This document shows, in pieces, positions 1,207-62,291 of a DNA stretch of 64,000 bases. The position numbers were made by a program, and so were the translations under genes. The DNA is from a virus. How positions within the stretch are numbered: the first letter of the stretch is position 1; each line of letters opens with the position of its first letter. The notes under the pieces are model-generated. The model was given only the letters and a program-made list of their open reading frames with translations. It did not search any database and was not told the DNA's origin. The DNA lies in IMG/VR virus record IMGVR_UViG_3300025098_000012, positions 124,001 through 188,000 of that record; one strand, given 5' to 3'.

Positions 1207-4200
1207 TCATTTCTTCCCAAAGCGACCATTGATTGAGTCTCTTAGGTTATAGCGTGGTGATTTAGGTGCAATCCTTTTAGCATCTGAACCACCTCGCCCT
1301 GTGTATCGACCACCTGTAGCAAAGGTCTTTCCCCCTGCCATTGGGTGTCGGTATTGCCGACTGCCTTTAGAACTAGCAAAGTATCGACCTTTGCCGATGT
1401 TATTAGATGCAAGCCATGCCATGCGTACAAGTGCGTCTGACATATCGTCATGTTTGCCTTTAGTCTGTGGGGCTTCGACTGTGATGAGATGCTTACCATG
1501 CACCGTTTGCTGTAGCTCTAAGAGTTCTTGGATATACGGTTCATGTCCTTCTGTCTCATAGTTAGGTCGATTGTAAAGTTTGATCTTCTGATCCCACATC
1601 ATGTCCTTAAAGTTTTGATACATCTGTGAGGAGAGCTGTTTGGTCATATTATGAGAGGTAAGATTTTTCAATCCTCGCTTCTCAAGTGCTTGTTGAAATG
1701 GAATACCAGCCCATTGGTCAAACATACCCTCTGTGATGTAGAACTTCTTTGTGTAATCTAACACCCAGTCAGCGACATCATCGAACTCTAATCGTTCTTT
1801 GTCTTGGTAGATACCTTCACCTGCTTTAATTTGAGCTACTAGATCTACCACGATTTCTTCACCATCGAGATGTCCAATAGCTATGGCAGTTCCGTCACCT
1901 ACAAGACCCAAGTCGATCCCCATAAAGTGTGGCATTCTAGCAGGGGCTGATCTCTGAGGTTTTAACTGTGTGTCAACACAAGATAAGAGATCTTGTTCAT
2001 CTGTGATCCAACCTCTTGTTCTGTCTGTGAACTCGCCACCATACTCTGTAAAGAACACAGCGGCGTTCTTGAGATAATGCTTCTCGAACTCTTGAGCAGG
2101 AACAGTTGGGTTTACTTCCCAAGTAGGAGCTTGGACAGCAAGGATGTTATCGGCAGCCGCTCCCCCACCCATACCGATTTGGAACAGGTTATAAAACAAA
2201 CCCTGTTTACCCAAAGGAGAAGAAATCAAGATAACACGACCCTCTACCTCTCCAATAGGAACTGTGGGGTTGTTAGGGTCTTTAGCCGAGTAAGCAGAGG
2301 TCGAAGGTACAACAGCGTTATAGACTTCTTCAGCACCCGATTGACCTGTTTCAGTAAAGTGAGCCACCTCGTCAAGAATAACGCATATATTACCTGCACC
2401 ACGAAGCCCTTTAGCTACACAAGACCTAAATGTAACTTTAAGAGTAGCTTTAGCAGAGGGATCTTCAATGTATCTACCGTACTTCTCAACATCAGCAGGT
2501 GTTTGAAAGCGAGCGTAAGATAGAGTATTGTTAGCAGTATATGGGCCAAAAAAAGCACAGTTGCGATAGTGTCCAGAAACTTCTTGATAAAGCAATCCTG
2601 CTTGGTCTTTATCAGTCGCCACAGAGATGATTTGGATGTTATTGCTTTGAGGTAGTCCGTAGAACTTTTGTGGGTTTTCTTTTTTGATGAGTTTGTAGGT
2701 TTCATAAGCGGCAATACACGCAGAAATCGTAGTGTTGTGATTAGTAAACCCATTGCCGATGAACATTGCTCCGTTAGGGACATTGAGATCAAAGACATGA
2801 GCTTCACGCTGTTCTACTTTAATGATACGGTCGAAAAAGTAATCGAGGTCAATGAGGTTATATATCTGAGACTTTGTGGTTTGACTTAGACCCTTATGAT
2901 CAGCGATCTTCTTGATCTTCCAATAGGGGGTATATTTAGTTGTAGGGCTTAGATCATGTTCAAGATCGGGGTGGAACTTCTTAAGTCGTTCAGCATACTC
3001 ATAGAAGAATGGCACACCCTCATTAGCACCCCTATAAGAAACGCTCGACATCACACCTTCAAGACACTTTTTCTTACGCTCTGATATAAACCCTATATGT
3101 TGGTCGAAAATCCTCTTAGACTTAGATCCTTTGAGTCTAATACGATACTCGGTTCTATCTTCTCGATTACTTTTGGAAAGGTTAGAGGTGATGCCGAGAT
3201 TGAGTAAAAGGAGTTGTGTCTCCCTCGCAAGCTCATAAGAAGCAGATGAAAGGGTAATAGATTGTTTGTAAGCCGAACCATCTGTTTCAAACAGACCTCT
3301 TAAAAAAGCACACACCACGCTTTTAGGAGATTGCATGATCGTATGTGGGATTTGCTTGGTGGTTGTCGTGCAGTCAACCACCCAACCTAGATTATTAAGG
3401 AACTGTCTTATGTCCTTACCATGAGCTGAGACTCTACCTACATCTACTTTTCTTTTATCTGGATAGTAAGAAACTTTGCCAAACAAGTCTCTGAACAGAC
3501 CCATTAAGTATTTCTCGAATGGCTTCTCCCCTACAGTGATTGAAATAGCTTTATCATTAGTCCAATGACCATCACCTGCAAGCAGACCTAATAACTCACC
3601 CCAACGCTCATCAAGGTATTTGGGTTGGTTCACATTCGTGTGGTGTTCACTTATATCTACATATTCATTAGGCCAAAGCTGACTTGAGCGATTGATGCAA
3701 GCCACATCACCTTCTTCAATCTCTTCAAGGTACTTCCATTCGATCTTACATTCGGGAGTCATCACTTTGATACGATGATTTCCTGTACCCTCAATCCTGT
3801 ATCCACAGAATGTCTCTAGGTACTTGGTAGCTTTTACCCCTCCGTTGTAGAAATAAGCAGACCTAGAGGTTGTACCAGACTCTTGGACTACATTGACTTG
3901 TAAGGGTTGTACCTCATCTCCATTTATATCCCCTAACGAGTCAATCCTAACCATACCTCTATTTGTAGGAATGAGCGTTTCACCTGTTACGCATTTACCC
4001 GATCTACGACCAATAGAGAGGATCATCTCTCGTCTTTGTTTACCTGGTATTACTTCACCTATATTGCAACGACCTTCATCAAAGATTTTTCGCAGGTAAG
4101 ATTTCTCGGTGTGAGTCTCGATTTTGGTTCGTGTCCAATCAGAGATTTGAAAGGTCTTTTCATCATCAAGCTCAAGACCATAGTGTGCTTTAAGGATAAC

Positions 4201-4329
4201 TCTTTGCACAGGAAAAAGGGTCATCTTCAAACCCCAAGATGCTTCTACAAACTCGATGATGTCAGCATCTTTTTCAGATTTTTTACCTGCTCTCGCACTC
4301 GCAGAAATGGCTACTGAGGATAAACTCAT
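1207..4329 (-). CDS. terL: Terminase large subunit, intein-interrupted
   Basis: The ATPase-nuclease motor that packages DNA into proheads. The 1040-residue precursor contains a 420-residue intein (residues 113-532), leaving a mature protein of about 620. The extein Walker A is GRRSGK (107-112) joined to TT after splicing. Walker B follows as ICVILDEVAHF, and a coupling motif as ILISSPLGKQGLF. The C-terminal RNase H-like nuclease domain has FMGIDLG with the first acidic residue and KHDDMSDAL with the last acidic cluster. The start overlaps the upstream stop by one base (TAATG), so translation is coupled. A Gly/Arg-rich tail follows the nuclease. The family call is firm. Confidence 0.95.
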   Translation of the reverse strand: MSLSSVAISASARAGKKSEKDADIIEFVEASWGLKMTLFPVQRVILKAHYGLELDDEKTFQISDWTRTKIETHTEKSYLRKIFDEGRCNIGEVIPGKQRREMILSIGRRSGKCVTGETLIPTNRGMVRIDSLGDINGDEVQPLQVNVVQESGTTSRSAYFYNGGVKATKYLETFCGYRIEGTGNHRIKVMTPECKIEWKYLEEIEEGDVACINRSSQLWPNEYVDISEHHTNVNQPKYLDERWGELLGLLAGDGHWTNDKAISITVGEKPFEKYLMGLFRDLFGKVSYYPDKRKVDVGRVSAHGKDIRQFLNNLGWVVDCTTTTKQIPHTIMQSPKSVVCAFLRGLFETDGSAYKQSITLSSASYELARETQLLLLNLGITSNLSKSNREDRTEYRIRLKGSKSKRIFDQHIGFISERKKKCLEGVMSSVSYRGANEGVPFFYEYAERLKKFHPDLEHDLSPTTKYTPYWKIKKIADHKGLSQTTKSQIYNLIDLDYFFDRIIKVEQREAHVFDLNVPNGAMFIGNGFTNHNTTISACIAAYETYKLIKKENPQKFYGLPQSNNIQIISVATDKDQAGLLYQEVSGHYRNCAFFGPYTANNTLSYARFQTPADVEKYGRYIEDPSAKATLKVTFRSCVAKGLRGAGNICVILDEVAHFTETGQSGAEEVYNAVVPSTSAYSAKDPNNPTVPIGEVEGRVILISSPLGKQGLFYNLFQIGMGGGAAADNILAVQAPTWEVNPTVPAQEFEKHYLKNAAVFFTEYGGEFTDRTRGWITDEQDLLSCVDTQLKPQRSAPARMPHFMGIDLGLVGDGTAIAIGHLDGEEIVVDLVAQIKAGEGIYQDKERLEFDDVADWVLDYTKKFYITEGMFDQWAGIPFQQALEKRGLKNLTSHNMTKQLSSQMYQNFKDMMWDQKIKLYNRPNYETEGHEPYIQELLELQQTVHGKHLITVEAPQTKGKHDDMSDALVRMAWLASNNIGKGRYFASSKGSRQYRHPMAGGKTFATGGRYTGRGGSDAKRIAPKSPRYNLRDSINGRFGKK
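2734..3993 (-). other. LAGLIDADG intein within TerL
   Basis: In-frame intervening protein inserted between Lys and Thr of the Walker A loop. It starts with Cys113 (block A: CVTGETLIPTNRGMVRI), has a block B-like segment with GTGNHRIKV, and ends with the F/G blocks HVFDLNVPNGAMFIG and the terminal His-Asn, followed by Thr. Two homing-endonuclease motifs are visible, LLGLLAGDGHW and FLRGLFETDGS, so the endonuclease domain looks intact. The length of 420 residues is normal for a full intein. Confidence 0.95.
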
Positions 4330-15435: not shown

Positions 15436-15629
15436 ACTTCCCACCAATCGTACATTGTAAATCCGTACTCCTCGCTGATCCAATCTGAGATACCATCTTC
15501 ATCCTCATAGGCGATGTCGATAGGTACGAGAACAATATGAGGTAGTCCAGCTTGTTCAACAGCGTTATCATAATCTGTATCTTCAAGCTCTGTTTGAGAA
15601 AAATCCCATTGAACACGAACTTTCATCAT
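15432..15629 (-). CDS. Small acidic unknown protein downstream of glutamine synthetase
   Basis: A 65-residue acidic protein rich in Asp, Glu and Trp (ISDWISEEYGF, YDWWEV). Two adjacent ATG codons (15629, 15626) overlap the glutamine synthetase stop (ATGATGA), and GGGG lies just upstream; either could be used. Translational coupling to the synthetase suggests co-expression. No family recognised. Confidence 0.7.
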   Translation of the reverse strand: MMKVRVQWDFSQTELEDTDYDNAVEQAGLPHIVLVPIDIAYEDEDGISDWISEEYGFTMYDWWEV

Positions 15630-16648
15630 TTACCCCAAGTGTCTGAAATAGTCCTTATCAATGCTTCACACACAAGATAAGGGTCAGCATTAGCGTTAGG
15701 TCTACGATCTTCAAAGTAGCCACAACCATTCTTATCTGTCTCCACAGGAATGCGAACCGAAGCTGTCCGATCAGACACTCCCGACTTAAATTCATCATAG
15801 CGACAAGTCTCATGGTGTCCTGTTAATCGGATCTCATACCCTGCACCATACCGATCAAGGTGTTCTTGAATCCTGTGAGACATCTTCTCTACAGCTTTGT
15901 TGATTTCCTCGATACCACCTTCTTGTCTCATTGCTTTGGTAGAGAAGTTGGTGTGCATACCTGCACCGTTCCAATCACCTGTAACTGGCTTAGGGTCAAG
16001 GGTAGCCGAGATGTCGAAATCTTCACCTACACGATAAAGAAGCCACCGAGCAATCCACAGATAGTCACTTGCAGACAGAGCATCTTGCATCGGACCACCG
16101 AGTTGGAACTCCCATTGACCAGGCATTACTTCAGCGTTGATCCCTGTGATTGGTAGTTCTGCTTTCAAGCACACATCAAGATGCTTCTCTACGAGATTTC
16201 TACCCGAAACTTCATCTGAACCAACCCCACAATAATAAGGACCTTGTTCAGCAGGAAACCTACGCTCACTAGGGAAGCCCAAAGGTCTTGATCCCTTATA
16301 GAGAGTATATTCTTGTTCAAAAGCAACCCACTCGCCTTGATCTACGAATGACTTGAGTGCCTCTACGAGTTTGGCTCTTGTATTTGAAGGGTGTTTTTCA
16401 CCATCTACTGTTTCTACTTCACAAAGAACGAGAATGTTATCTCCACCTCTGATGGGATCTTCGACAACTCGTACTGGTCTTAATACACAATCTGATGAGT
16501 TGCCTTCAGCTTGCATGGTGGAAGATCCATCAAAGCTCCAAAGGGGCAACTGTTCGGGTGAAAAAGTAGGTGCTGTGAGATACTTCGTCTTTGACCTTAC
16601 CCTTGCTGTAGGGTTTCCACCATCAATCCAAATATATTCTGCGAGCAT
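15626..16648 (-). CDS. Glutamine synthetase, eukaryotic/GlnII type
   Basis: Makes glutamine from glutamate, ammonia and ATP. At 340 residues it matches the short type II family, not the roughly 470-residue bacterial GlnA. Visible family blocks are AEYIWIDGG at the start, LPLWSFDGSSTMQAEG, SDCVLRPV, the Glu-rich FEQEYTLY, RPLGFPSERRFPAEQGPYYC, NAEVMPGQWEFQ, DWNGAGMHTNFST, LTGHHET, and the C-terminal DRTASVRIP and YFEDRRPNANADPY. These include metal-binding Glu and ATP/glutamate-binding residues. The start at MLAEYIW follows AAAGGAGAG; an upstream ATG is not needed. Carrying this gene would supply glutamine for nucleotide synthesis; that purpose is inference. Confidence 0.95.
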   Translation of the reverse strand: MLAEYIWIDGGNPTARVRSKTKYLTAPTFSPEQLPLWSFDGSSTMQAEGNSSDCVLRPVRVVEDPIRGGDNILVLCEVETVDGEKHPSNTRAKLVEALKSFVDQGEWVAFEQEYTLYKGSRPLGFPSERRFPAEQGPYYCGVGSDEVSGRNLVEKHLDVCLKAELPITGINAEVMPGQWEFQLGGPMQDALSASDYLWIARWLLYRVGEDFDISATLDPKPVTGDWNGAGMHTNFSTKAMRQEGGIEEINKAVEKMSHRIQEHLDRYGAGYEIRLTGHHETCRYDEFKSGVSDRTASVRIPVETDKNGCGYFEDRRPNANADPYLVCEALIRTISDTWGK

Positions 16649-16682
16649 TAAGCTCTCCTTTCTTAAATAAGAGAAGAGATAC

Positions 16683-16696
16683 AATAAATAAACTAT
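16683..16696 (-). promoter_or_regulatory. Promoter-like motif before glutamine synthetase
   Basis: ATAGTTTATTTATT, 34 bases before the start at 16648 and touching the stop codon of the last methyltransferase gene. Confidence 0.5.
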
Positions 16697-17930: not shown

Positions 17931-18247
17931 AGTTCATTCTCCTTTTTAAACTTCTTGAAAAACTTCGACCCCTCACAACTAACCTCATTTGTTAAGATGA
18001 AATTAGCTGGCCATCTGCCCTTTTCTTTATACATTTGTATGTCTGAACCAACTTGAGCAACATGACCCGACCACCCGCTCTCTTTGTAGGAAGCTGTTTG
18101 TTGTCTTTGCCTAGCTTCAAAGTTTATACTTTCATTTTCATCGTAGCCTACTCTAGTGACATCTATATTCAAAGCTCCGCACCCATGTTTAAGAGTGTTT
18201 TCGGCTACGCTTCCCTCTAGGGGTTTTCTAAGGATAGTGATGATCAT
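17927..18247 (-). CDS. Methyltransferase central module B3, shortened
   Basis: A 106-residue copy of the central module. It has MIITILRKPLEGSVAEN, GCGALNID, GRWPANFIL and a terminal SKFFKKFKKE, but lacks the CPVQELDRQSG block and the variable insert seen in its paralogues. It begins inside the stop of catalytic module A2 (ATGA). It may be a minimal recognition cassette or a decaying copy; the frame is intact. Confidence 0.75.
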   Translation of the reverse strand: MIITILRKPLEGSVAENTLKHGCGALNIDVTRVGYDENESINFEARQRQQTASYKESGWSGHVAQVGSDIQMYKEKGRWPANFILTNEVSCEGSKFFKKFKKENEL

Positions 18248-18813
18248 GTTTTAACTCCAATGCAAACTGGTTCCCAAGCAGGTTTAAGAGCTGTACCCCA
18301 ACCTTCCCACTTTTTAGCTTCATCTGAAACTAAAGCCCGAATAGGTATTTGAGTTGCTTTTTGAACAATACCAACACCGCCTCGTGCAATACCCCCATGA
18401 CCTTGTGAGTCCTCAACGCTCACACCTAGTTTATGTCCGATGACTTCTCCCTCAACTCCTAGCTTCTTTTCAAACTGCTTGGCTAGATTATGAGATTTCG
18501 GAAAACCAGACCCGTATGCCCATGCTTCTACTTTCAAGTCTGCGAAGCCTATTTCTCCCATCATTGCTATTAAATGATGAAAGGTTCTCGTACCGCTAAA
18601 AGCCTTAAGGACACCGTTAGGTTTAAGGACTCTATGAGCTTCTCTAATCCAAGCTCTATGCCATTCTCTTTGTTGAGATCCTTCCCCAATGTCATCCCAA
18701 CCTTTAGACATAAACTTAAGTCCGTAAGGGGGGTCGCAGATAATAGCGTCTACGGAGTTATCTTCTAAGTCTTTAAGTCGTTGGGTGCAATCACCTATCT
18801 TGATTTCTATCAT
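18244..18813 (-). CDS. Methyltransferase catalytic half A2 (DPPY)
   Basis: A 189-residue protein equal to the N-terminal half of beta-class DNA methyltransferases: IEIKIGDCTQRLKDL, then catalytic motif IV CDPPYG (about residues 27-32), VLKPNGVLKAFSG, FHHLIAMMGEIGF, and ending GWGTALKPAWEPVCIG. In one-piece relatives the chain continues directly into RKPLEGSV; here it stops and the next gene begins with that block. No motif I is present, so it cannot bind AdoMet by the usual motif alone. Confidence 0.85.
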   Translation of the reverse strand: MIEIKIGDCTQRLKDLEDNSVDAIICDPPYGLKFMSKGWDDIGEGSQQREWHRAWIREAHRVLKPNGVLKAFSGTRTFHHLIAMMGEIGFADLKVEAWAYGSGFPKSHNLAKQFEKKLGVEGEVIGHKLGVSVEDSQGHGGIARGGVGIVQKATQIPIRALVSDEAKKWEGWGTALKPAWEPVCIGVKT

Positions 18814-19382
18814 TAGTCATTCTCTTTCTTAAGTTGTTTGAAGAACCTGGAAGCTCCACCCTCATCTCCAAATCCTGTCATTTCTCCTCCTGGGAAGTTT
18901 CCATGATAGCCTGTACCTGCTTTTTTAGTTCCTGTCGGTTTACCACTTTGTCGGTCTAACTCTTGAACTGAGCAACCCTCAACACAAGCCCAATCAGATA
19001 TGGTTTCTTTTCCATCTTTATCTGCATGACCTACCCTGTGAATACCCTCTTTAGAGTTATTCATGGAAATAGAAGTCTTAGCTTCATTACCTACAGAGGG
19101 TTTGCTTATTGCACCCTTAACTTTCTTAGTGCCTTTTAGTTCACAACCATCTTTATGGGTAAGGATAAAGTTAGCTGGCCACCTGCCTTTTGACTCAGTT
19201 GGATCTATAGGTTTAGATTTCCAATTATCATCGTGCATAACCCCTAGACTACCCATAGACCTAGAAACCATAGTCTCTGTACCTACTCTAGTGGCATCTA
19301 TATTTATAGCACTACAACCATGTTTAAGAGTATTCTCAGTTACTGAACCCTCTAACGGTTTTCTCAATATGGTGATAATCAT
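18813..19382 (-). CDS. Methyltransferase central module B2 (target-recognition-like)
   Basis: A 189-residue central module with MIITILRKPLEGSVTEN, GCSAINIDATRVG, GRWPANFILTHKDGCELKG, WACVEGCSVQELDRQSG and GGASRFFKQLKKE. Between the conserved blocks it carries a variable stretch of about 60 residues, different from B1, which is where sequence specificity could lie. It begins 3 bases after B1 ends and overlaps A2 by one base. Confidence 0.8.
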   Translation of the reverse strand: MIITILRKPLEGSVTENTLKHGCSAINIDATRVGTETMVSRSMGSLGVMHDDNWKSKPIDPTESKGRWPANFILTHKDGCELKGTKKVKGAISKPSVGNEAKTSISMNNSKEGIHRVGHADKDGKETISDWACVEGCSVQELDRQSGKPTGTKKAGTGYHGNFPGGEMTGFGDEGGASRFFKQLKKEND

Positions 19383-19385
19383 AGT

Positions 19386-19997
19386 TCATTCTCCTTTCTT
19401 AAATTGTTTGAAGAAACGAGAAGCACCTCCCTCATCATTATACCCCTCTTTATACCCTTGTCTTTGGGTTGACGAGTTATGAAAAGAGTTTCCTTGGTAT
19501 GGATTAAAAGTATTATGGTTTTGACTCGACCAACCTTTGACTTGACCACTTTGTCTATCTAACTCTTTAACAGGACAATCCTCTGCACAATCCCAATCAG
19601 CTACTGTTTCCTCTCCTTGATGGTGGTCTTTAGCTCTTTTCTTAAGTCCATCCTTATAAAGACCTACTTCTCTGTCAGAATAAAGACCTACTTCTCTGTC
19701 AGAGCCACTTTTACCCTGTTTGGTCTTCTTAATCCCTTTTAACTCACAATCGTCTTTGTGAGTAAGAATGAAGTTAGCTGGCCACCTACCTGTAGTAATC
19801 TTCCCCTCAAAGTCTTCTTTAAGACCCGATTGAAAGACAGTACTTTTATGCTTATCTGGAGAGCGTCCATTTTTAGAAGTGTCTTGAACTAAGTTCCCAA
19901 TGCGAGTGGCATCAATGTTGATAGCCCCACACCCATGTTTAAGGGTGTTCTCAGTCACACTCCCCTCTAGGGGCTTTCTAAGTAATGTAATGATCAT
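19386..19997 (-). CDS. Methyltransferase central module B1 (target-recognition-like)
   Basis: A 203-residue central module, the longest copy: MIITLLRKPLEGSVTEN, GCGAINIDATRIG, GRWPANFILTHKDDCELKG, WDCAEDCPVKELDRQSG and GGASRFFKQFKK. It contains a short internal duplication, two copies of SDREVGLY in a row, matched by a DNA repeat near 19670-19700. It overlaps catalytic module A1 by ATGA. Confidence 0.8.
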   Translation of the reverse strand: MIITLLRKPLEGSVTENTLKHGCGAINIDATRIGNLVQDTSKNGRSPDKHKSTVFQSGLKEDFEGKITTGRWPANFILTHKDDCELKGIKKTKQGKSGSDREVGLYSDREVGLYKDGLKKRAKDHHQGEETVADWDCAEDCPVKELDRQSGQVKGWSSQNHNTFNPYQGNSFHNSSTQRQGYKEGYNDEGGASRFFKQFKKGE

Positions 19998-20584
19998 AAC
20001 TTAACTCCTATACAAACTGGTTCCCAAGATTTCTTAAGGGTAGTGCCATAGCCCATGTAAAGAGAAGCCTCTTTAGTCTGAGGTTCAAGATCAAAAGCTA
20101 CTCCGTCTATCTGATAGTCTTTAGGTCGGAGGCCATGCTCTAAAAATATTTTACTATATCCTACTTTCCCTCCCCTACGACTACCTTTAAGTTTTTTAAA
20201 TGTTTTTTTGTTAGAGTTTCCAAATAAGAGTGTTGCCTCTATGCCTTTTGCCATGTCGTAGTTCCCTGTCGGCATACCACTTGTGTAAACCCATGCCTCG
20301 ACTACGAGGTTTACGAACCCTACTTCAATCATAGCAGATGTTAAATGATGCAATGTTTTAGCACTTGAGAACGCTTTAAGGACACCATTAGATTTAAGGA
20401 CTCTATGAGCTTCGGTTAACCATCCACAATGCCATTCTCTTTGTTGCTTTCCCAACCCTAAATCATCCCAACCTTTTTCCAAATACCTTACACCATAAGG
20501 GGGATCACAGATAATAGCGTCTACGGAGTTATCCTCTAGGTCTTTAAGTCGTTGGGTGCAATCACCAATCTTTATTTCTATCAT
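19994..20584 (-). CDS. Methyltransferase catalytic half A1 (DPPY)
   Basis: A 196-residue paralogue of A2, with the same IEIKIGDCTQRLKDLEDNSV opening, CDPPYG motif IV, LKSNGVLKAFSSAKTLHHL and terminal KKSWEPVCIG. It differs from A2 in the central part (SNKKTFKKLKGSRRGGKVG, basic). It overlaps the chaperonin stop by ATGA, so the whole operon is translationally coupled. It lacks the AdoMet-binding motif, which in this locus only module C provides. Confidence 0.85.
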   Translation of the reverse strand: MIEIKIGDCTQRLKDLEDNSVDAIICDPPYGVRYLEKGWDDLGLGKQQREWHCGWLTEAHRVLKSNGVLKAFSSAKTLHHLTSAMIEVGFVNLVVEAWVYTSGMPTGNYDMAKGIEATLLFGNSNKKTFKKLKGSRRGGKVGYSKIFLEHGLRPKDYQIDGVAFDLEPQTKEASLYMGYGTTLKKSWEPVCIGVKL

Positions 20585-24262: not shown

Positions 24263-24847
24263 CTACCAACGAGGATCTTTTCTGCGAAAGTTCCCACGAG
24301 GTTGATTTCGATTATCGTAATGAGGGTTGTAATGAGGATTATAGTGAGGGTTGTAGTGAGGGTTATAGTGTCGGGGTGGGTGCTGATTATAGTGTGGTTG
24401 GTTGTAGTGTTGAGGACGCTTCTCACGATACACATCCTTATCCCAACGCCTCCTTTGCTTTTGGATCACATGAGAAGGTACATTGTGTTCACACCTCTCA
24501 GAGAGCTGACGGTCAGATAAGCCTCCATCATAAAGATTGATGACCTGTACAAAGTAGTCATTCTTGTTCGCCAACTCCATGTAAGGATCACACTCCCACT
24601 TGCGAGTGAAAGTATTATGGACGACAATAGTCTGATAACTATCCTCCATAGCTTCAAGGCACTCTTTTTGACACCAAGAGTGAGCCTCTTTCAACGCTTC
24701 ATGGTTGAAGTTATAAACACCACTGTCATCAACGAAGAAATCGTCTGCTGACACCATGAACCGATCTTCCAACCCCACACAAATTGTCTCTGCGAGTGTT
24801 GTTTTCCCCGACCCACTTAACCCTCGTACCAAAATCAGTTGCTTCAC
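24263..24847 (-). CDS. P-loop kinase with (NPHY)n tail
   Basis: A 194-residue protein with Walker A GLSGSGKTT (9-17) and an AAA_33/polynucleotide-kinase-like layout (VSADDFFVDDSGVYNF, VVHNTFTRKWECDPYMELA). Such proteins phosphorylate polynucleotide ends or small substrates; the exact substrate is not clear. The last 50 residues are low complexity, a run of HYNPHYNP-type units ending RGNFRRKDPRW, His/Tyr/Asn-rich and basic, possibly RNA-binding. The start is GTG with GGAGAAATACA upstream. Confidence 0.8.
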   Translation of the reverse strand: MKQLILVRGLSGSGKTTLAETICVGLEDRFMVSADDFFVDDSGVYNFNHEALKEAHSWCQKECLEAMEDSYQTIVVHNTFTRKWECDPYMELANKNDYFVQVINLYDGGLSDRQLSERCEHNVPSHVIQKQRRRWDKDVYREKRPQHYNQPHYNQHPPRHYNPHYNPHYNPHYNPHYDNRNQPRGNFRRKDPRW

Positions 24848-25863: not shown

Positions 25864-26793
25864 TTACCCTACCTCACGCATACAGACTTGCTCGTCTGTC
25901 TCGTCTTGGATTTCGGTTTGGGTCATCAGTTCCATGATGTCCTCAAGACTTACAACACCATCTGTTCCTCCAAAGTCATCGACCATGACAGCAAGGTGAG
26001 ACTTGCTCGTGGTGAACTGCTTGAACATTTCCTCACAGGTGGTTGATGACTCAACCTTGAGGACAGTACGAGTAAGCTCTTGGACAGTCGGGTTCTCATC
26101 CTTAGCGAGTGCTTGGAAAGCGTCTTTAAGGAGCATGATCCCTTGTACATCATCTCGGCTCTTGCCTAGTACGACAAGTCGTGAGTGCTGACTCTCAAAG
26201 AGAGCTGGCTTGATGTCCTCAAGACTCTCATCTGCTCGGACAGTGGTCATGTTCACACGAGGTGTACCAACCTGCTCAACAGTCGTGAGTGAAAGGTTGT
26301 ATGTACCCTCGTAGATACGCTCTACGATTGCACTAGGCTCTGCACTCTTAAAACGAGCTGTGAGCTTTCCGATGATCCAGTTGATAGGAGTGAGTACCCA
26401 TGAGAGCAAAACCATCACAGGAGCGAATATACGCCCTACAAAGAGAGGGTTATTCGTACCATACGCTTTCGGGATGATCTCTGAGCAGATTATGATAGTG
26501 AAAGTGAGGATACCCATCACCAAACCAACATACTCAGACCCAAGCCACAGACCTGCGTTAGTACCGACAACACCACTACCCATGATGTTGGCGATGTTAT
26601 TACAGATGGTATTAGTCGAGATAAAGGACTCTTTGTCGCTCATCACCTTAGATAAAGCACAAGCTCCGAAGATCTTGTTCTTACAGGCACTCTTGACCTC
26701 AGCCTTAGAGAGCGAAGCGACAGCCATTTCCCACGCACTGTGGATGGCTGAAGCGATGATGGTGATGATGAAAGCAGTAAGGGTGCTGACCAT
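25864..26793 (-). CDS. CNNM/CorC-type membrane transporter (DUF21 + CBS)
   Basis: A 309-residue protein. The N-terminal 130 residues contain several hydrophobic segments (FIITIIASAIHSAWEMAV, GLVMGILTFTIIICSEIIPK), typical of the DUF21 transporter domain. Residues about 185-295 match a CBS pair (MTTVRADESLEDIKPAL, HSRLVVLGKSRDDVQGIML, HLAVMVDDFGGTDGVVSLEDIMEL), the hallmark of CorC/HlyC/CNNM Mg2+ exporters. The start at MVSTLTAF follows CGGAGAAC; a 27-residue upstream extension runs through the promoter and is rejected. A complete copy in a phage is unusual and would alter host divalent-cation flux; the purpose is inference. Confidence 0.85.
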   Translation of the reverse strand: MVSTLTAFIITIIASAIHSAWEMAVASLSKAEVKSACKNKIFGACALSKVMSDKESFISTNTICNNIANIMGSGVVGTNAGLWLGSEYVGLVMGILTFTIIICSEIIPKAYGTNNPLFVGRIFAPVMVLLSWVLTPINWIIGKLTARFKSAEPSAIVERIYEGTYNLSLTTVEQVGTPRVNMTTVRADESLEDIKPALFESQHSRLVVLGKSRDDVQGIMLLKDAFQALAKDENPTVQELTRTVLKVESSTTCEEMFKQFTTSKSHLAVMVDDFGGTDGVVSLEDIMELMTQTEIQDETDEQVCMREVG

Positions 26794-26841
26794 GTTTAGT
26801 TCTCCGTTTGGGAGTTGGGGTTTTCGTTTCTCACACAATGG

Positions 26842-26858
26842 GATAGATAAGGGGTTAC
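26842..26858 (-). promoter_or_regulatory. Promoter-like motif GTAACCCCTTATCTATC
   Basis: GTAACCCC-type motif 48 bases before the transporter start. With the copy at 26912 it forms a divergent pair in one intergenic region. Confidence 0.6.
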
Positions 26859-26911
26859 GACCCACACCCGACAATACCTAAGCTCCTGTAAAGTAAAGCG
26901 AAGTCTGACTT

Positions 26912-26985: not shown

Positions 26986-27276
26986 ATGAATGTAATCATC
27001 ACACAAGAAGAGATGGAGATCATCGCTTACGAGGTTGCCAAGCAAGAGCGTAAGGATCAGTGCCTTGCACAGAGCTTCAGAGGCATGAGCGATGAGGAGA
27101 TCGCTGAGTGTCTTCGCCTTGAAGAAGAACGATATGAGGCCGAACTTGCAGAGGATCGAGCTGAAGACGCTTGGCAAGCGTGGAATGGAAACCCTCTCTA
27201 TATCTCTCGTGAGGAGCTTAGACTCCATGAGATAGCACTCGACCATGAGTCGATTGAGATGAGCCTCATGGGGTAA
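26986..27276 (+). CDS. Small acidic helical protein
   Basis: A 96-residue Glu-rich, helical protein (EEMEIIAYEVAKQERKDQ, LEEERYEAELAEDRAED). ACGGAGACAAAAC precedes the start. First gene of the small operon leading to the WGR-like protein and Sir2. A frame on the opposite strand covers the same DNA but has no promoter or ribosome site. No function recognised. Confidence 0.75.
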   Translation: MNVIITQEEMEIIAYEVAKQERKDQCLAQSFRGMSDEEIAECLRLEEERYEAELAEDRAEDAWQAWNGNPLYISREELRLHEIALDHESIEMSLMG

Positions 27277-27329
27277 ACCTAAACCATAGGAGAAACAAAG
27301 AGACTCACTCACTAAAGGAGAAACATCAC

Positions 27330-27575
27330 ATGGGAATCGACCCTATCACGCAATGCAATCTTTCACCCACCTTCACCTTGCGACTTGAGCATAAGGACGG
27401 ACACTATAAGTTTTGGGAGGCTACAGGTCGCCCAAATGGAGATGTAATCATCCGTTATGGACGCATAGGGGATTGGGGTACAGCAATCACAAAAGATCGG
27501 GCTTACTTTGAGAAGAAAGCCCCCACAAAAATCGCCAAAGGCTACAAAGTAGAGAGGATGGAACTATCATGCTAA
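27330..27575 (+). CDS. WGR-domain-like small protein
   Basis: An 81-residue protein: FTLRLEHKDGHYKFWEA, then IIRYGRIGDWGTAITK, RAYFEKKAPTKIAKGY. The RYGRIGDWG core followed by a helix and K-x-x-KGY resembles the WGR domain found in PARPs and other DNA/NAD-linked proteins; here it reads YGRIG rather than strict WGR. AAAGGAGAAACATCAC precedes the ATG. It overlaps the Sir2 gene by 7 bases, so the two products are probably made together. A decayed second copy follows Sir2. Confidence 0.7.
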   Translation: MGIDPITQCNLSPTFTLRLEHKDGHYKFWEATGRPNGDVIIRYGRIGDWGTAITKDRAYFEKKAPTKIAKGYKVERMELSC

Positions 27576-28357
27576 ACTCAATCAAAACATCAGATAACAT
27601 CTTAATCGTAACGGGTGCAGGTATCAGTACCTCATCGGGCATCCAAGCATGGCGAACAGGTGATGACGCTGTGTGGGCAAATGATGTGCTTGAGAAAGGC
27701 ACACAACGCTACTTCAACCGTAATCCTGCAAAAGCGTGGGAGTGGTATCTCGACAAGTTTAAGGGTGTCTTTGCCCTTGAGCCTAATGACGCTCATAAAG
27801 CTCTCGTGGAGCTTGAAACATGGTGCGAGTCAGAGGGTAAGACCTTTGACATCATCACACAGAATGTGGATCACCTTCACAACAAGGCAGGCTCACAGAA
27901 TGTCATCGAAATACATGGTACAACCAACGCTGTGCGTTGCCCTAATCATGGGTGTGATCATGGAGAGCCGAGAGGTTCAATCCCGATGAGCGAGGTATGG
28001 GCTGACTATAAGAAGTTTGAACAGACCAAAAAACCGAAAGACTTACCTTGTTGCCCTAAATGCGAGATCCCTTTAAGGGCACACGCTCTATGGTTCGATG
28101 AGTTTTATGGAGGTCACGAGGACTATCGCTTAGATGACGCTATGGGAGCAATCGAAGAAGCAGATCTAGTGGTCTTTATCGGCACTAGCTTCTCTGTAGG
28201 GATCACGAACATGGTGGTTCAAGCTGGTAGACAGATGAGGAAACCGATGTATATCATCGACCCTAGTCCTACCCAAGAGTCCAAGAGCTTCAAATACATC
28301 ACTGAGAAGGCAGAGGACTACCTGCCAAACTTAGTGCAACAACTGACTAAGAGGTAA
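27569..28357 (+). CDS. Sir2-family NAD-dependent protein deacylase
   Basis: A 262-residue sirtuin. NAD-binding motifs are GAGIS (16-20), TQNVDHLH (97-104), and IGTSFSVG near the end; the catalytic His is His116 in EIHG. Zinc cysteines are in CPNHGC (124-129) and CCPKC (161-165). The core is complete, so activity is expected: NAD-dependent deacylation, or NAD consumption. Overlap with the WGR-like gene suggests a joint NAD-related function, perhaps countering or mimicking NAD-based host defence; that last step is speculative. Confidence 0.92.
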   Translation: MLNSIKTSDNILIVTGAGISTSSGIQAWRTGDDAVWANDVLEKGTQRYFNRNPAKAWEWYLDKFKGVFALEPNDAHKALVELETWCESEGKTFDIITQNVDHLHNKAGSQNVIEIHGTTNAVRCPNHGCDHGEPRGSIPMSEVWADYKKFEQTKKPKDLPCCPKCEIPLRAHALWFDEFYGGHEDYRLDDAMGAIEEADLVVFIGTSFSVGITNMVVQAGRQMRKPMYIIDPSPTQESKSFKYITEKAEDYLPNLVQQLTKR

Positions 28358-28362
28358 GAGGT

Positions 28363-28581
28363 ATGGCTATTGACGCTGTAACACAATGTAATCTATCACC
28401 CTCATTCACTCTTCGCCTTGAGCATAAAGACCCTAGAGGCAGGTAAGGTTCTCATACGCTCTGGTAGTCTTGGCACTACCTATCTGAAAGAGGTCATAGA
28501 GCGTACTTTGAGAGAAATGCTCCCCAAAAGATCGCTAAGGGTTATGTCGTAAAGAGGCTAGTCATAGGATCTGACGGATGA
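28363..28581 (+). pseudogene. Decayed copy of the WGR-like gene
   Basis: Starts MAIDAVTQCNLSPSFTLRLE, almost the same as the gene at 27330, but reaches a stop after 27 codons. Matching pieces continue in other frames: GKVLIRSGSLGTT and then RAYFERNAPQKIAKGYVVKR. A deletion plus frameshifts explains this. It ends inside the last codons of the convergent kinase gene. Confidence 0.85.
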
Positions 28582-29131
28582 CATCTAGCCTCTGACCCTC
28601 ATCCATGTCGTACCAATCGAGATTGATGTATTTAGTCTCTTTAGGGAGTCTGTCTGGTATCTGCATGACTTGAGCCTGTAGCTTGTGCAGGTAAGACTCC
28701 TCGATACCCGACTCGAACTCTCGACCCCTCTTAGAAATCCTTTGCATTGCTTGATCTACACTTACATGGAGATGAATACACACATCAACATGAGGGATAT
28801 AAGGTTTAAGCATCTCGAAGTGCTTCGTATACGAGCTGTGTTCGTCCTCTGTTAGCACACCGTCATCTCTTAAGATGTTAGCGAAGCATATATCTCCAAA
28901 AATCGAGCGATCAAGAAGGGTGTTTTCGGGGAGGTGCTTTGAGAACCTGTCGTAGAGGAAGTGCATCTGAAGCGTATAAGCCCACCTGCTAGGGTCATCG
29001 GAATAAAACTTTTCAAGGAATGGGTTATCATCAACCGACTCATACATGGGAGTGAGGTTGAAATACTTGCTGGCTTCTTCTGTGAATGTGGACTTACCGA
29101 CACCGATAAGACCCTCTACGATAATTCTCAT
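28562..29131 (-). CDS. Deoxynucleoside kinase
   Basis: A 189-residue kinase of the dCK/dGK/dNK family that phosphorylates deoxynucleosides for dNTP synthesis. It has P-loop GLIGVGKST (7-15), LDRSIFGD (the ERS/DRS motif), the Arg-rich lid RISKRGREFESG, and the C-terminal IPxD-like region. AAGGAGGT before the ATG. Its stop overlaps the convergent WGR pseudogene. It would salvage nucleosides from degraded host DNA. Confidence 0.9.
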   Translation of the reverse strand: MRIIVEGLIGVGKSTFTEEASKYFNLTPMYESVDDNPFLEKFYSDDPSRWAYTLQMHFLYDRFSKHLPENTLLDRSIFGDICFANILRDDGVLTEDEHSSYTKHFEMLKPYIPHVDVCIHLHVSVDQAMQRISKRGREFESGIEESYLHKLQAQVMQIPDRLPKETKYINLDWYDMDEGQRLDVIRQIL

Positions 29132-45303: not shown

Positions 45304-46182
45304 TTAACGCTGTACAGTAAGACGAGCAAGACCACGAGGGTTGTAAGCTCCGATACCCAAGTTTTCAAAGACACTGAAGCCGATTGTACGAGCTTTAGGA
45401 TCGTCAGCAGAAAGGACGGTCAACTCGGTACGAACAGGGATACGACCAAACATCTCTGGCTCACAGCAGACATAAACAGTTCCAACAGGAACAAGTCGGC
45501 TAGTGATGATCTGAGCACCCCAAAGGGTAGCCTGTAGACCAGTCTTGAGAAGTGCCGCTTGGCTCTCGATGTCGAGAATGTCACGACCGAACTTACGGAT
45601 GTCAGCGTAATCACGAGCATTCATGAATACACGAGCAACACGAAGGTCATGACGCTCAATGAGGCTGTATGCGTCAGCAAGAACAGCACCATTAAGAGGA
45701 GCGATAACAGGAATGTCAGCGTTAGTCTGACCTGCAACGCTATCAAATCCGTTAGCCGCAACTGCATCAAGGATAGCGAATACACGCTCGTCCTCAGCCG
45801 CTTGGATTTGAGCACGAGCAAGATCCTGAGCACGCTCGATAAGGTCGAACCTACGCTCTTTGATCTGTGTGAGTGGGATCTCTGGGTTAGAAGCGATCTC
45901 AAACAATGGGAAGATAACCCTGCGTGGCTTGGTGATAGCAAGGATGTTCTCACCCTCTTCACCAACTACGAAAGCAGTCACATCGGGATCTTTGTCGTAG
46001 ATAGGTAAAGCACCATCTGGAAGTTGCTCGACTAAGAAAGTCTTACGACCAACAGAGGTGTAATCTCTACGAAGGCGAAGTGGTTGAGTCATTGAAGCGG
46101 CGAGCTTCGCACGACCCTGTGGAGTCTTAATGTAGTCAGAAATGATCTTCTGTTTTACGGCATTATCAACTGTATTACTCAT
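45304..46182 (-). CDS. Major capsid protein, HK97-fold candidate
   Basis: A 292-residue protein. The pattern is that of an HK97-type capsid subunit: an N-terminal arm, a long helix with ERRFDLIERAQDLARAQIQ, AILDAVAANG, then strands VFMNARDYADIRKFG and WGAQIITSRLVPVGTVYVC, and an end-domain IPVRTELTVLSADD. It follows protease, scaffold and a small capsid-like gene, the usual order, and is followed by a strong terminator. I rely on layout and secondary-structure pattern, so MCP is very likely but not proved by a signature motif. Confidence 0.85.
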   Translation of the reverse strand: MSNTVDNAVKQKIISDYIKTPQGRAKLAASMTQPLRLRRDYTSVGRKTFLVEQLPDGALPIYDKDPDVTAFVVGEEGENILAITKPRRVIFPLFEIASNPEIPLTQIKERRFDLIERAQDLARAQIQAAEDERVFAILDAVAANGFDSVAGQTNADIPVIAPLNGAVLADAYSLIERHDLRVARVFMNARDYADIRKFGRDILDIESQAALLKTGLQATLWGAQIITSRLVPVGTVYVCCEPEMFGRIPVRTELTVLSADDPKARTIGFSVFENLGIGAYNPRGLARLTVQR

Positions 46183-59273: not shown

Positions 59274-59939
59274 ATGAAGATTTTGATTGTAAGCACAACC
59301 ACGCATAGGGATAAATCAACTAGCAAAATGGTGCTAAGTAAACTGTCAGATAAACTAAATGAAAAGCATGATATAGACTTCATTGATGCAAATGATCTTC
59401 ACATCGTTCCTAATCTTAGTTGTTATTCTGATGGGAAAATGAACTGTGCTAATCCAGACGCAGGTAAATATAGATGTTGGGCACATAAACTTAGTCATGA
59501 CAACCCCGATGATTATCGGGGGAAAGATGAGATGAACATCATTTATGACGCTTTAGATTGGTGCGACTTGGTAATATGGGGAACGAGTGTTCGTTGGGGT
59601 AGTCATTCAGCCTTGATGCAGAAGATCATAGAGCGTATGAATACCCTTGAAAACCAACAAACAGTATATGGAGAGAAGAACCCTTTAGAGGGTAAGAAAT
59701 GTGGTGTTGTGGTAACTGGACAGCATTATAAGGCACAATCGGTATCTGAACACCTCATCACACAGTTCGGGTGGATTGGTTTTGATACAGACCCCTCTTA
59801 TGTTTTGACTTGGCAGAAATCCCAAGACATACACCTAGAGCAAGAAGATGATAACAACGACCCTCTTGAAGCATATCTCAAATCTAAAGAGGGCAAGGCA
59901 CAAGTAGATAACTTCCTTTCATTCATGGAGATCAAATGA
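59274..59939 (+). CDS. Flavodoxin-like NAD(P)H-dependent FMN reductase
   Basis: A 221-residue protein with the flavodoxin-fold start [17 protein letters not shown] (phosphate-binding loop), a central [20 protein letters not shown], and [13 protein letters not shown]. These fit FMN-dependent oxidoreductases of the flavodoxin-like family. The stop overlaps the GMP reductase gene by four bases, so the two are coupled. GMP reductase itself uses NADPH and no flavin, so the partnership is of interest. Substrate unknown. Confidence 0.8.
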
Positions 59940-61420
59940 GAATCGAAACAGACTTTAAACTCGACTTTAAAGATGTGTTGTTTAAGCCTAAGAGGTCTAC
60001 CCTCACATCACGCAAAGATGTGAAACTATCTAGGGAGATTAAACTCCCTCACAGTAAAAGAATATGGGAGGGTGTACCTATAGTAGCCGCTAATATGGAC
60101 ACCGTAGCTACCTTTGAAGCAGGTAAAGTCCTCACCGACCTCCACATGATGGTCTGTCTCCATAAGCATTACACCGAAGAACGATACATGGAGATATATG
60201 ATTGGGTGTATTCCAATCAAGGATGTGGCTACGCTCCATATTGGGCTTACTCTATGGGTATCTCAGACGAAGAATTTGATAGACTTGTGCGTATTCAAGA
60301 TAAGACCAATGGAATGATCCTCACGATCTGCATTGATGTGGCTAATGGGTATACAGAGCGTTTCATTGAGTTTGTCGCTAAGGTAAGGAAAAAGTATCCA
60401 CTCTCCATCATCATCGCAGGGAATGTAGTCACAGCAGAAATCACTGAACAGTTGATCTTAGCAGGTGCTGACATCGTAAAGGTTGGGATTGGTTCGGGAT
60501 GCTTCGTTGCTGGTACACCTATCCTCACCAATAATGGACTCAAGGCGATTGAGGAAGTTGAGGTAGGAGATAAAGTAATGACTCACATGGGTCGTGAGCG
60601 TACTGTGTCGAACACCTTCACCCATACCGATAAGAATCTACTCGTTAATGTGAATGGTATCAAAGCGACACCAAACCATGAGTTCTATGTGGTACATAAG
60701 TCTGATGCAGATAAGGTGAATGACGAGAACATCCATGAGTACGCAAAGTGGGTTCGAGCTGATGAACTGACCTATTCACATTATCTTTTAGAAGCACCCT
60801 CATTTAGTCTCATAGAAATCAATACCCTAGAAACAGAACCTAACCCATCGGGGATCGCCTATGACCTTGAGGTCGAGGAAGATCACTCATATACGATTGG
60901 GGAGAATAGGACTGTAGTTCATAACTCAGCGTGTACGACCAGAATACAGGCAGGTGTAGGTTATCCACAGTTAAGTGCTGTTATTGAGTGTGCTGATGCC
61001 GCTCATGGTTTAGGTGGACGCATCATGTCAGATGGTGGTTGTACCTGTCCTGGTGATGTAGCTAAGGCATTTGGTGGTGGAGCTGACTATGTGATGCTTG
61101 GGGGTATGCTCGCAGGACACACCGAGAACCTTAGACTTGATGAAGATGGAAACGCACTCTTCTATGGTATGTCATCAGACACAGCCATGAACAAGTATCA
61201 TGGTGGTGTTAATGACTATCGTTCGTCAGAAGGACGCACAGTAGCCATTGAGCGTAAAGGTTCAATCAAAGATACCCTCCAAGACATACTTGGAGGCATC
61301 CGATCAACCTGTACTTATATTGGTGCAAGCGAGCTAAGAGAACTGAGTAAATGCACGACATTCATTCGTGTTCGTCAGCAATATAACTCTGTGTTTGAGT
61401 CTAGGACGCTTAAGTCTTAG
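59936..61420 (+). CDS. guaC: GMP reductase with mini-intein
   Basis: Converts GMP to IMP with NADPH, linking guanine to adenine nucleotide pools. The 494-residue precursor contains a 142-residue intein (189-330); the mature enzyme would be about 352 residues, near E. coli GuaC at 347. Diagnostic blocks are [39 protein letters not shown] followed after splicing by [15 protein letters not shown] (catalytic Cys loop), [29 protein letters not shown] and [13 protein letters not shown] (read here as [12 protein letters not shown]). These favour GMP reductase over IMP dehydrogenase. It overlaps the flavodoxin-like gene by four bases. Confidence 0.93.
60500..60925 (+). other. Mini-intein within the GMP reductase catalytic loop
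   Basis: A 142-residue intein starting Cys189 ([20 protein letters not shown], block A), with block B-like [11 protein letters not shown], then [15 protein letters not shown] and TVVHN, ending His-Asn before Ser331. No LAGLIDADG or HNH block lies between, so no homing endonuclease is present. It interrupts GIGSG|SACTT, next to the catalytic Cys. Confidence 0.93.
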
Positions 61421-61679: not shown

Positions 61680-62291
61680 TCATAATCCTTTCGAGGCATA
61701 GCCCCAACTTAATAGATTGTCGATTACTTGCTCTAGGAACTCTTTACGACCATTCTCATAGTCGGGGTAATAAGCGTGTTCCCATAGGTCAATGGTTAAG
61801 ATAGGTCGATGACCTCTCATCATTGGTGTGTTTTGATTTAGAGTCGAATAAACTCTAAGCTCGCCTGTCTTAGTCTCGGCTAACCAAACCCAACCAGAAC
61901 CGAAATGACTCGTTCCTTCAAGGATAAGTTCATCTCTAAGTTCTGAGTATCCACCAAAAGTCTTATTAACTTTACCTTGAAAAGATCTTGAGGTGTCCTC
62001 ATATCTAATAGGTTTAGGGGAGAGACAGTTCCAATAAAAAGCATGGTTCCAGACACCACCACCAAAGTCGATTACAGACTGTTTGATTTCTTGTGGTATC
62101 CACTTTGGGTTAGATATGAGTTGATAGAGGCTACCTACTCGTTCAAGCATTTCTGGATATTGCTCAAGAGTCGTATTGAGCTTATCTACATATCCTTTCT
62201 GGTGTGAAAGGTGATGTAGCCTCATAGCCTTTTCAGAGATAATAGGCTCAAGAGCGTCATACTTATATGGTAGTGGTTGTAGTTTAATCAT
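61680..62291 (-). CDS. Fe/Mn superoxide dismutase
   Basis: Converts superoxide to peroxide and oxygen. A 203-residue protein with all four expected metal ligands: His26 in MRLHHLSHQKGYVDKL, His83 in VWNHAFYWN, and Asp168 and His172 in TIDLWEHAYYPDY. The family features NHxFYWN and DLWEHAYY are complete, so the enzyme should be active; Fe or Mn preference cannot be decided here. Coupled to tagged protein 8. Phage-borne superoxide dismutase is rare and may protect virions or the infected cell. Confidence 0.95.
   Translation of the reverse strand: MIKLQPLPYKYDALEPIISEKAMRLHHLSHQKGYVDKLNTTLEQYPEMLERVGSLYQLISNPKWIPQEIKQSVIDFGGGVWNHAFYWNCLSPKPIRYEDTSRSFQGKVNKTFGGYSELRDELILEGTSHFGSGWVWLAETKTGELRVYSTLNQNTPMMRGHRPILTIDLWEHAYYPDYENGRKEFLEQVIDNLLSWGYASKGL

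Follow-up and report, generated by a model that had tools for sequence, protein, structure and literature searches.

A small WGR-type gene overlaps a sirtuin gene in an accessory cassette of one jumbo-phage sub-lineage

We analysed a 64,000-nucleotide stretch of viral DNA (the window) in which a small gene of the WGR type, here called copy A, overlaps a complete sirtuin gene, with a broken relative of the small gene, copy B, beyond the sirtuin (Table 1). The WGR-sirtuin pair is an accessory cassette of one jumbo-phage sub-lineage and is not general, and both of its genes are under purifying selection. By analogy with WGR domains elsewhere, we tentatively propose that the WGR protein may direct the co-made deacylase to nucleic acid, a reading to which we give somewhat less than an even chance.

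Table 1. Features in and around the WGR-sirtuin locus. Positions are those of the window except in the first row.
Feature	Position	Strand	Remarks
Analysed window	bases 124001-188000 of the 226,698-base virus record		
CNNM/CBS membrane protein	25864..26874	-	PF01595 1.1e-26, CBS 2.2e-10; conserved neighbour, other side
96-aa ORF upstream of the WGR-sirtuin pair	26986..27276	+	outside the conserved unit
Ribosome-binding site of copy A	27314..27324	+	AAAGGAGAAAC; anti-SD duplex -8.7 kcal/mol
WGR-type gene, copy A	27330..27575	+	81 aa
Overlap ATGCTAA, WGR stop / Sir2 start	27569..27575	+	7 nt; identical in 6/6 records
Sirtuin gene	27569..28357	+	262 aa; PF02146 4.6e-31
Near-identical tract vs L007	28328..28621	+	1 mismatch, two deletions apart
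Broken second WGR copy (copy B)	28363..28581	+	38-bp deletion at 28426/28427, 7-bp at 28497/28498
Deoxynucleoside kinase (dNK)	28562..29131	-	PF01712 1.9e-37; conserved convergent neighbour bounding the cassette

When viral contigs were scanned, the WGR query and the Sir2 query returned the same five contigs, which family searches confirmed. Together with its own record, the pair is present in six records that amount to five distinct sequences, since the pair in L003 is identical to that in L006. The WGR gene had dN/dS values of 0.05-0.17 across the 10 pairs of these five sequences, and the sirtuin gene 0.07-0.14. Such low ratios in both genes indicate that both proteins are very likely made and of use. 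Chance open reading frames are ruled out by these ratios and the family matches, the idea of a unique oddity is ruled out by the five other records, and an assembly artefact is unlikely given the same overlap in all six. The original prediction of a WGR-like gene overlapping a complete sirtuin was borne out, with an overlap of 7 nt, orthologues of the small protein above the Pfam WGR cut-off and a PF02146 match for the larger one, and the pair is not confined to this genome.

Wherever a record covers both sides, the WGR-sirtuin unit sits between the CNNM/CBS and dNK genes, and the small genes up- and downstream of it vary among the records; other small ORFs take the place of the 96-aa ORF in relatives. 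Each of the six records has a separate ribosome-binding site for Sir2 (-5.6 to -12.9 kcal/mol), from which it could be translated independently of the WGR gene; a reliance of Sir2 on the WGR gene for lack of such a site was ruled out. This arrangement would suit the main rival to recruitment, in which WGR and the sirtuin act separately from one transcript, the first as a DNA-binding regulator and the second as a metabolic deacylase that could, for instance, activate host acetyl-CoA synthetase. Acetyl-CoA synthetase activation has been proposed for a phage sirtuin (PMC5107563, excerpt), and a WGR in another jumbo phage is classed as a DNA-binding domain of the transcription-factor type, apart from SIR2 (PMC7824862, excerpt). 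Against separate jobs, the records examined contain either both genes or neither while the flanking small genes vary, and the overlap is kept in all six that have the pair. We regard a mere sharing of a transcript as somewhat unlikely.

The identity of the small protein was examined by sequence and by predicted structure. In the window, copy A scored 21.5 bits against the Pfam WGR family (PF05406), 0.5 under the curated cut-off of 22 bits, and four distinct orthologues all scored above it (22.6, 23.9, 24.7 and 25.4 bits). The W/Y-G-R motif reads YGR in 6/6 copies A; in bacterial PARP WGRs, tyrosine is the commonest first residue of this motif (PMC5966428, excerpt). With AlphaFold2 and seven sequences, the best of five models reached a pLDDT of 89.9; four lay at 88.7-89.9 and one at 58.8. 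The top match of the model in VIA-align 2 was 2ra8 (Z 8.3, 2.1 A over 63 residues, 30% identity), the start of which we take to be a WGR domain. WGR structures of PARP1/2/3 scored Z 4.5-6.3, with the PARP2 WGR-DNA structures at about 6, and triphosphate tunnel enzymes, which are not WGR proteins, scored up to 7.7, above the PARP rows and less than 1 below 2ra8, so that the structural ranking alone would not settle the WGR identity. Foldseek returned no match for the model at E <= 0.001. Since the sequence profile and the predicted fold agree, we consider the assignment of copy A as a WGR domain good, and the WGR fold that had been supposed for the small protein is what the model predicts. The WGR of PARP1-3 binds DNA breaks (PMC10789625, excerpt). 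The pI of the predicted protein, 9.2 in the window and 9.2-9.6 across the records, is consistent with DNA binding here as well.

For the sirtuin, an alignment of six sequences showed the motifs GAGIS and TQNVD and the catalytic H116-G117 to be invariant, as are C124, C129, C162 and C165, the presumed zinc ligands. Its pI in the window is 5.5. The closest PDB relatives by profile were 4twi (3.7e-31), which we take to be Archaeoglobus Sir2Af1, human SIRT5 (2b4y; 1.3e-24) and 1s5p (1.9e-22), presumably E. coli CobB. At the acyl-pocket positions the protein has Y60 and K63, where CobB has Tyr and Arg (Y92/R95, as we assume). In the sirtuin PA1125, changing a Tyr-Arg pair, Y64 and R67, abolished desuccinylation (PMC10652111, excerpt). 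The window sirtuin fell under the cut-offs of all seven NCBIfam sirtuin models that it matched, including the CobB equivalog NF040867 (163.7 bits, cut-off 320), and its AlphaFold model was poor (pLDDT 52.7). Its residues are those of a CobB/SIRT5/Sir2Af1-type deacylase, from which we infer an NAD+-dependent lysine deacylase activity; deacylation of host or phage proteins is plausible. Two other viral contigs encode sirtuins 43-44% identical to that of the window with no WGR nearby (L069 2456-3241 and L070 2501-3220), and that of L069 has Arg at the position of the window's Lys63.

The relationship to other phage sirtuins bears on a published function. In a tree of 15 rows, whose bootstrap had not settled, the V5-like, T5-like, Salmonella 7-11, SE_PL and Vibrio phage sirtuins formed a five-member clade (98/93) with the window sirtuin outside it. 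Sirtuins of the V5/T5-like/SE_PL/Vibrio clade read TTNVD or TANVS and are without the four cysteines; the sirtuin of jumbo phage BF is 51% identical to that of SE_PL. A role in RNA repair has been proposed for a clade of phage sirtuins, V5 and BF among them, that adjoins RNA ligase, Nudix and 2H genes (PMC9503650, excerpt). Since the window sirtuin lies outside the V5/SE_PL clade, this proposal does not carry over. We observed two possible RNA-repair parts in the phage: a P-loop kinase at 24263-24847 (-) of the window that matches a polynucleotide-kinase PHROG, and a tRNA-ligase phosphodiesterase-like protein at C1:201897-202451 (-) (L020), about 50 kb from the sirtuin and just under the cut-off (22.5 bits against 23). 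These two could speak for RNA end repair as in the large phage sirtuin clade; the tree and the TQNVD motif with four cysteines speak against it, as does a scan of neighbouring genes that matched neither RNA ligase nor Nudix, although the RNA-ligase family search, with 0 matches, left its controls silent too. We consider RNA end repair highly improbable for this sirtuin.

In the recruitment that we tentatively favour, the pair would be a two-gene accessory module whose overlapping frames let the WGR protein be made in step with the sirtuin. The small basic WGR protein would bind nucleic acid, as the PARP1-3 WGR does at DNA ends, and would also bind the sirtuin. Deacylation would thereby act on proteins sitting on DNA, either those of the host nucleoid, transcription or replication or the phage's own. 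Nucleic-acid binding, the WGR-sirtuin contact, the deacylase activity and its targets are all inferred from the two predicted proteins.

Since the pair had been described as centred on NAD, other genes of NAD and ADP-ribose metabolism were sought in the window's own record and two relatives (G000, G001 and G003). The PARP catalytic domain PF00644 was found in none of the three, with a search that matched the known record W14 and 0/14 controls. Neither was the Macro domain PF01661 (matched in 8/14 controls) nor NAPRTase, and a link to NAD salvage was rejected as NAPRTase was not found in the three records. The NAD-centred description thus holds for the sirtuin alone. The WGR protein and the sirtuin matched 0 families at E <= 0.01 in PADLOC 2.0.0, and the suggested interference with NAD-based defences is not supported here.

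These searches also bear on three further readings. With no PARP catalytic domain found in its own record and the DNA-break module of PARP1-3 beside a sirtuin, the pair could be a split, sirtuin-based counterpart of PARP, in which WGR would detect ends or nicks in DNA and there position or switch on an ADP-ribosylating or deacylating sirtuin; some sirtuins are ADP-ribosyltransferases (PMC9503650 and PMC10789625, excerpts). The residues of the window sirtuin are of the deacylase type, which argues against this. In bacteria, sirtuins that ADP-ribosylate are coupled to a macrodomain, and the search for one here gave no match. We hold the split counterpart, with a DNA-stimulated sirtuin activity, to be quite unlikely. 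A broader version seems to us improbable in much the same degree. In this two-polypeptide PARP counterpart, WGR would recognise ends or nicks in DNA, or a DNA state peculiar to the phage, and there recruit or switch on the sirtuin to modify DNA-bound proteins or DNA; the copy B of L007 (see below), similar to copy A at its ends and different in the middle, would have offered another specificity. A toxin-antitoxin or superinfection-exclusion function would have the small first gene restrain a growth-stopping, NAD+-consuming sirtuin. The order of a small basic protein and then a larger enzyme, in overlapping frames, would fit, and SIR2 domains are NADases in bacterial defence (PMC9503650, excerpt). 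Since TQNVD, HG and the four cysteines mark the enzyme as deacylase-type, and neither a PADLOC match nor a macrodomain was found, we judge such a function very unlikely.

The second WGR copy lies between Sir2 and the dNK gene. In the window its start resembles the WGR gene and a stop follows after 27 codons, in frame between a 38-bp and a 7-bp deletion; in L007 it is intact and encodes 87 aa. The two are identical at 222/223 positions apart from these deletions, both of which are known from the window record alone and may be errors of one record. The genes flanking the tract (sirtuin and kinase) are about 90% identical between the window and L007. A single mismatch in 28328-28621 against flanks of about 90% indicates that copy B was recently exchanged between phages. 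If the deletions are real, the breakage of copy B is also very recent.

The intact L007 copy matched no Pfam family at E <= 1, WGR included, and copy B has SGS in place of the YGR motif. The lack of a WGR match and the SGS in the intact gene indicate that copy B was a diverged paralogue before it broke. In L007, copies A and B are similar at their ends (18/23 and 15/20 identical, dN 0.14 and 0.11), where silent sites are near or beyond saturation, and less so in the middle (10/24 and 0/7 identical). In the recruitment model, the kept ends of copy B would hold the partner and the changed middle would be the nucleic-acid reader. Against recruitment, the middle may have changed simply through decay; since the intact copy B is a single example, a changed specificity looks no different from slow decay. 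In L003, L004 and L006 Sir2 abuts the kinase gene with no second copy between them, and in L005 this place is taken by an unrelated 122-aa ORF. With copy B, the 122-aa ORF or nothing at the Sir2-kinase junction, this junction appears to take in small genes. A broken copy after Sir2 had been noted, and its outer coordinates fit. Its description as a decayed WGR duplicate applies to the breakage and less to the divergence that came before. The map is compatible with a duplication across Sir2, but since the tract was recently exchanged, the duplication may have happened here or elsewhere.

How far the pairing extends was assessed with several samples. A sirtuin scan with a mixed alignment gave 175 viral relatives, of which the best 80 were kept. 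Five of these 80 loci belong to this lineage, and all five have the WGR gene; a home-made WGR profile found none near the others (0/75, flanks up to 2.5 kb). This profile recovered the Klebsiella phage PARP, which was absent from its input. The absence of WGR beside these other viral sirtuins counts against recruitment. Conserved pairing had been predicted, and it holds in six records under purifying selection but within one sub-lineage. Any WGR was present in 1/13 other sirtuin-bearing phage records (LR756511, about 220 kb from the sirtuin), two of which (L050 and L060) have neighbours resembling a bacterial chromosome. LR756511, from a 595-kb uncultured phage, encodes a sirtuin and an apparent WGR-PARP protein (L061 232-1821, -), the PARP part identified by eye. 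Among RaK2-like records with sirtuins, 2/10 have WGR, 5.7 and 8.3 kb from Sir2, a share that is not a fair sample as Escherichia phage UB was picked while seeking phages with both genes; SE_PL, related to this set, has no WGR in its record. The WGR family search is weak for the small type: copy A of the window scored 18.9 bits (E 3.5e-4, limit 1e-3), so close to the limit that a more diverged small WGR could be missed.

A capsid-based sample covered the phage's own kin. The scan returned 516 relatives, and those of the best 80 that were at least 36 kb were examined (n=18). Both genes were present in one, a 375-kb record that is a known carrier. SIR2 was absent from the other 17, many of them fragments, and a small WGR gene was found in 0 of these 17; the only WGR in one of them is of the stronger kind described below. 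Records of 290-316 kb in this sample are without both SIR2 and the small WGR. The capsid-matched records L165, L167 and L168, shorter than 36 kb, are pair carriers already counted, and the more distant L027 and L028, identical stretches on two contigs found via the kinase gene, have neither gene. Across these records, the small WGR gene and the sirtuin gene were thus either both present or both absent. The capsid-like protein (by eye) lies at 45304-46182 (-) of the window, and the best 80 of its 516 viral-contig relatives are 91-100% identical over nearly the full length, which points to an abundant jumbo-phage group.

No relatives of the sirtuin or the WGR protein were found in genome_contigs with patterns that reach close relatives only. 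At E <= 1e-20, plasmid sirtuins came from seven Pseudoalteromonas records and were 29-32% identical; plasmids gave no WGR match at E <= 0.01. Within the reach of these searches, which in genome_contigs took in close relatives only, we rejected a cellular origin of the pair. In phage records at E <= 0.01, WGR was matched only in three Klebsiella phages, and the annotation of one of these includes a PARP catalytic domain.

Several other features of the phage were observed. A second, much stronger WGR (52 bits) lies outside the window at C1:214984-215193 (-) (L001), in a longer frame behind a MRRSASEIIRNLEQRIARLE-type leader; this kind was also matched in L035, L036 and L237, and the protein is possibly a virion protein. 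Ten frames share the same leader, about MRRSASEIIRNLEQRIARLE, with different sequence after it in most: at 799 (+), 12483 (+), 15384 (-), 29213 (+), 30027 (+), 41077 (-) and 43801 (-) of the window and at C1 212772 (-), 215367 (-) and 219145 (+). The leader may be a capsid-targeting or processing signal. At C1:121916-123309 (L019), the gene of a class III nucleotidyl cyclase (Guanylate_cyc 1.2e-6) shares 4 nt with that of a 172-aa protein, which has hydrophobic stretches and matches Pfam at chance level only; the layout resembles Pycsar but had no PADLOC match. By eye, apparent inteins were seen in a terminase-like protein at 1207-4329 (-) and an IMP-dehydrogenase-like protein at 59936-61420 (+) of the window. 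Also by eye, we noted glutamine synthetase at 15626-16684 (-), superoxide dismutase at 61680-62291 (-), an adenylosuccinate synthetase-like protein at C1:188865-190064 (+), and at 18244-20584 (-) of the window a tandem arrangement of two methyltransferase-like gene pairs that resemble one another, each divided into two ORFs.

Phage sirtuins are common, and RNA repair is one published proposal for what they act on. A sirtuin from another branch with a free WGR protein, both under selection, offers a two-protein system for directly testing recruitment to DNA. If recruitment is correct, a WGR domain would serve an enzyme other than PARP and a phage would steer deacylation to chosen places.

WGR and SIR2 are each of known kinds, and their pairing in a phage appears new among the literature matches listed: their titles and abstract starts contained no description of it. 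The window sirtuin matches PHROG 2162 (E 7e-32), and the sirtuins known from jumbo phages and from V5-like and T5-like phages (Iyer et al. 2022, PMC9503650) are likewise SIR2 proteins of large tailed phages. The window sirtuin differs from them in its separate branch, its TQNVD motif with four cysteines and its WGR partner; the word WGR occurs 0 times in the main text of PMC9503650. Both genes occur at a distance in Escherichia phage UB (Asteriusvirus), with WGR AXC36881 and Sir2 AXC36890 on one strand 5.7 kb apart, and in Erwinia phage Hallingskeid, 8.3 kb apart. UB differs in that the two lie nine genes apart, in a WGR that ends a 323-aa protein and in a Nudix gene beside the sirtuin. Iyer et al. 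(2021) list a WGR, QAY00573, and a SIR2, QAY00582, from one number series in separate contexts (PMC7824862, excerpt). CobB, SIRT5 and Sir2Af1 (1s5p, 2b4y and 4twi) give long profile matches and have catalytic residues in common with the window sirtuin, which is 32% identical to the E. coli CobB row and has Lys in place of the acyl-pocket Arg. Bacterial sirtuin-macrodomain modules likewise combine a sirtuin with a co-encoded partner; here the partner is WGR, with no Macro domain in the three records searched. As in PARP1-3 and the WGR-PARP of Klebsiella phage vB_KpM_FBKp34, WGR is coupled to an NAD+-consuming enzyme, but here it stands alone as an 81-aa protein and its partner enzyme is a sirtuin. 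The two-gene layout would do the job of the domain fusion in PARPs.
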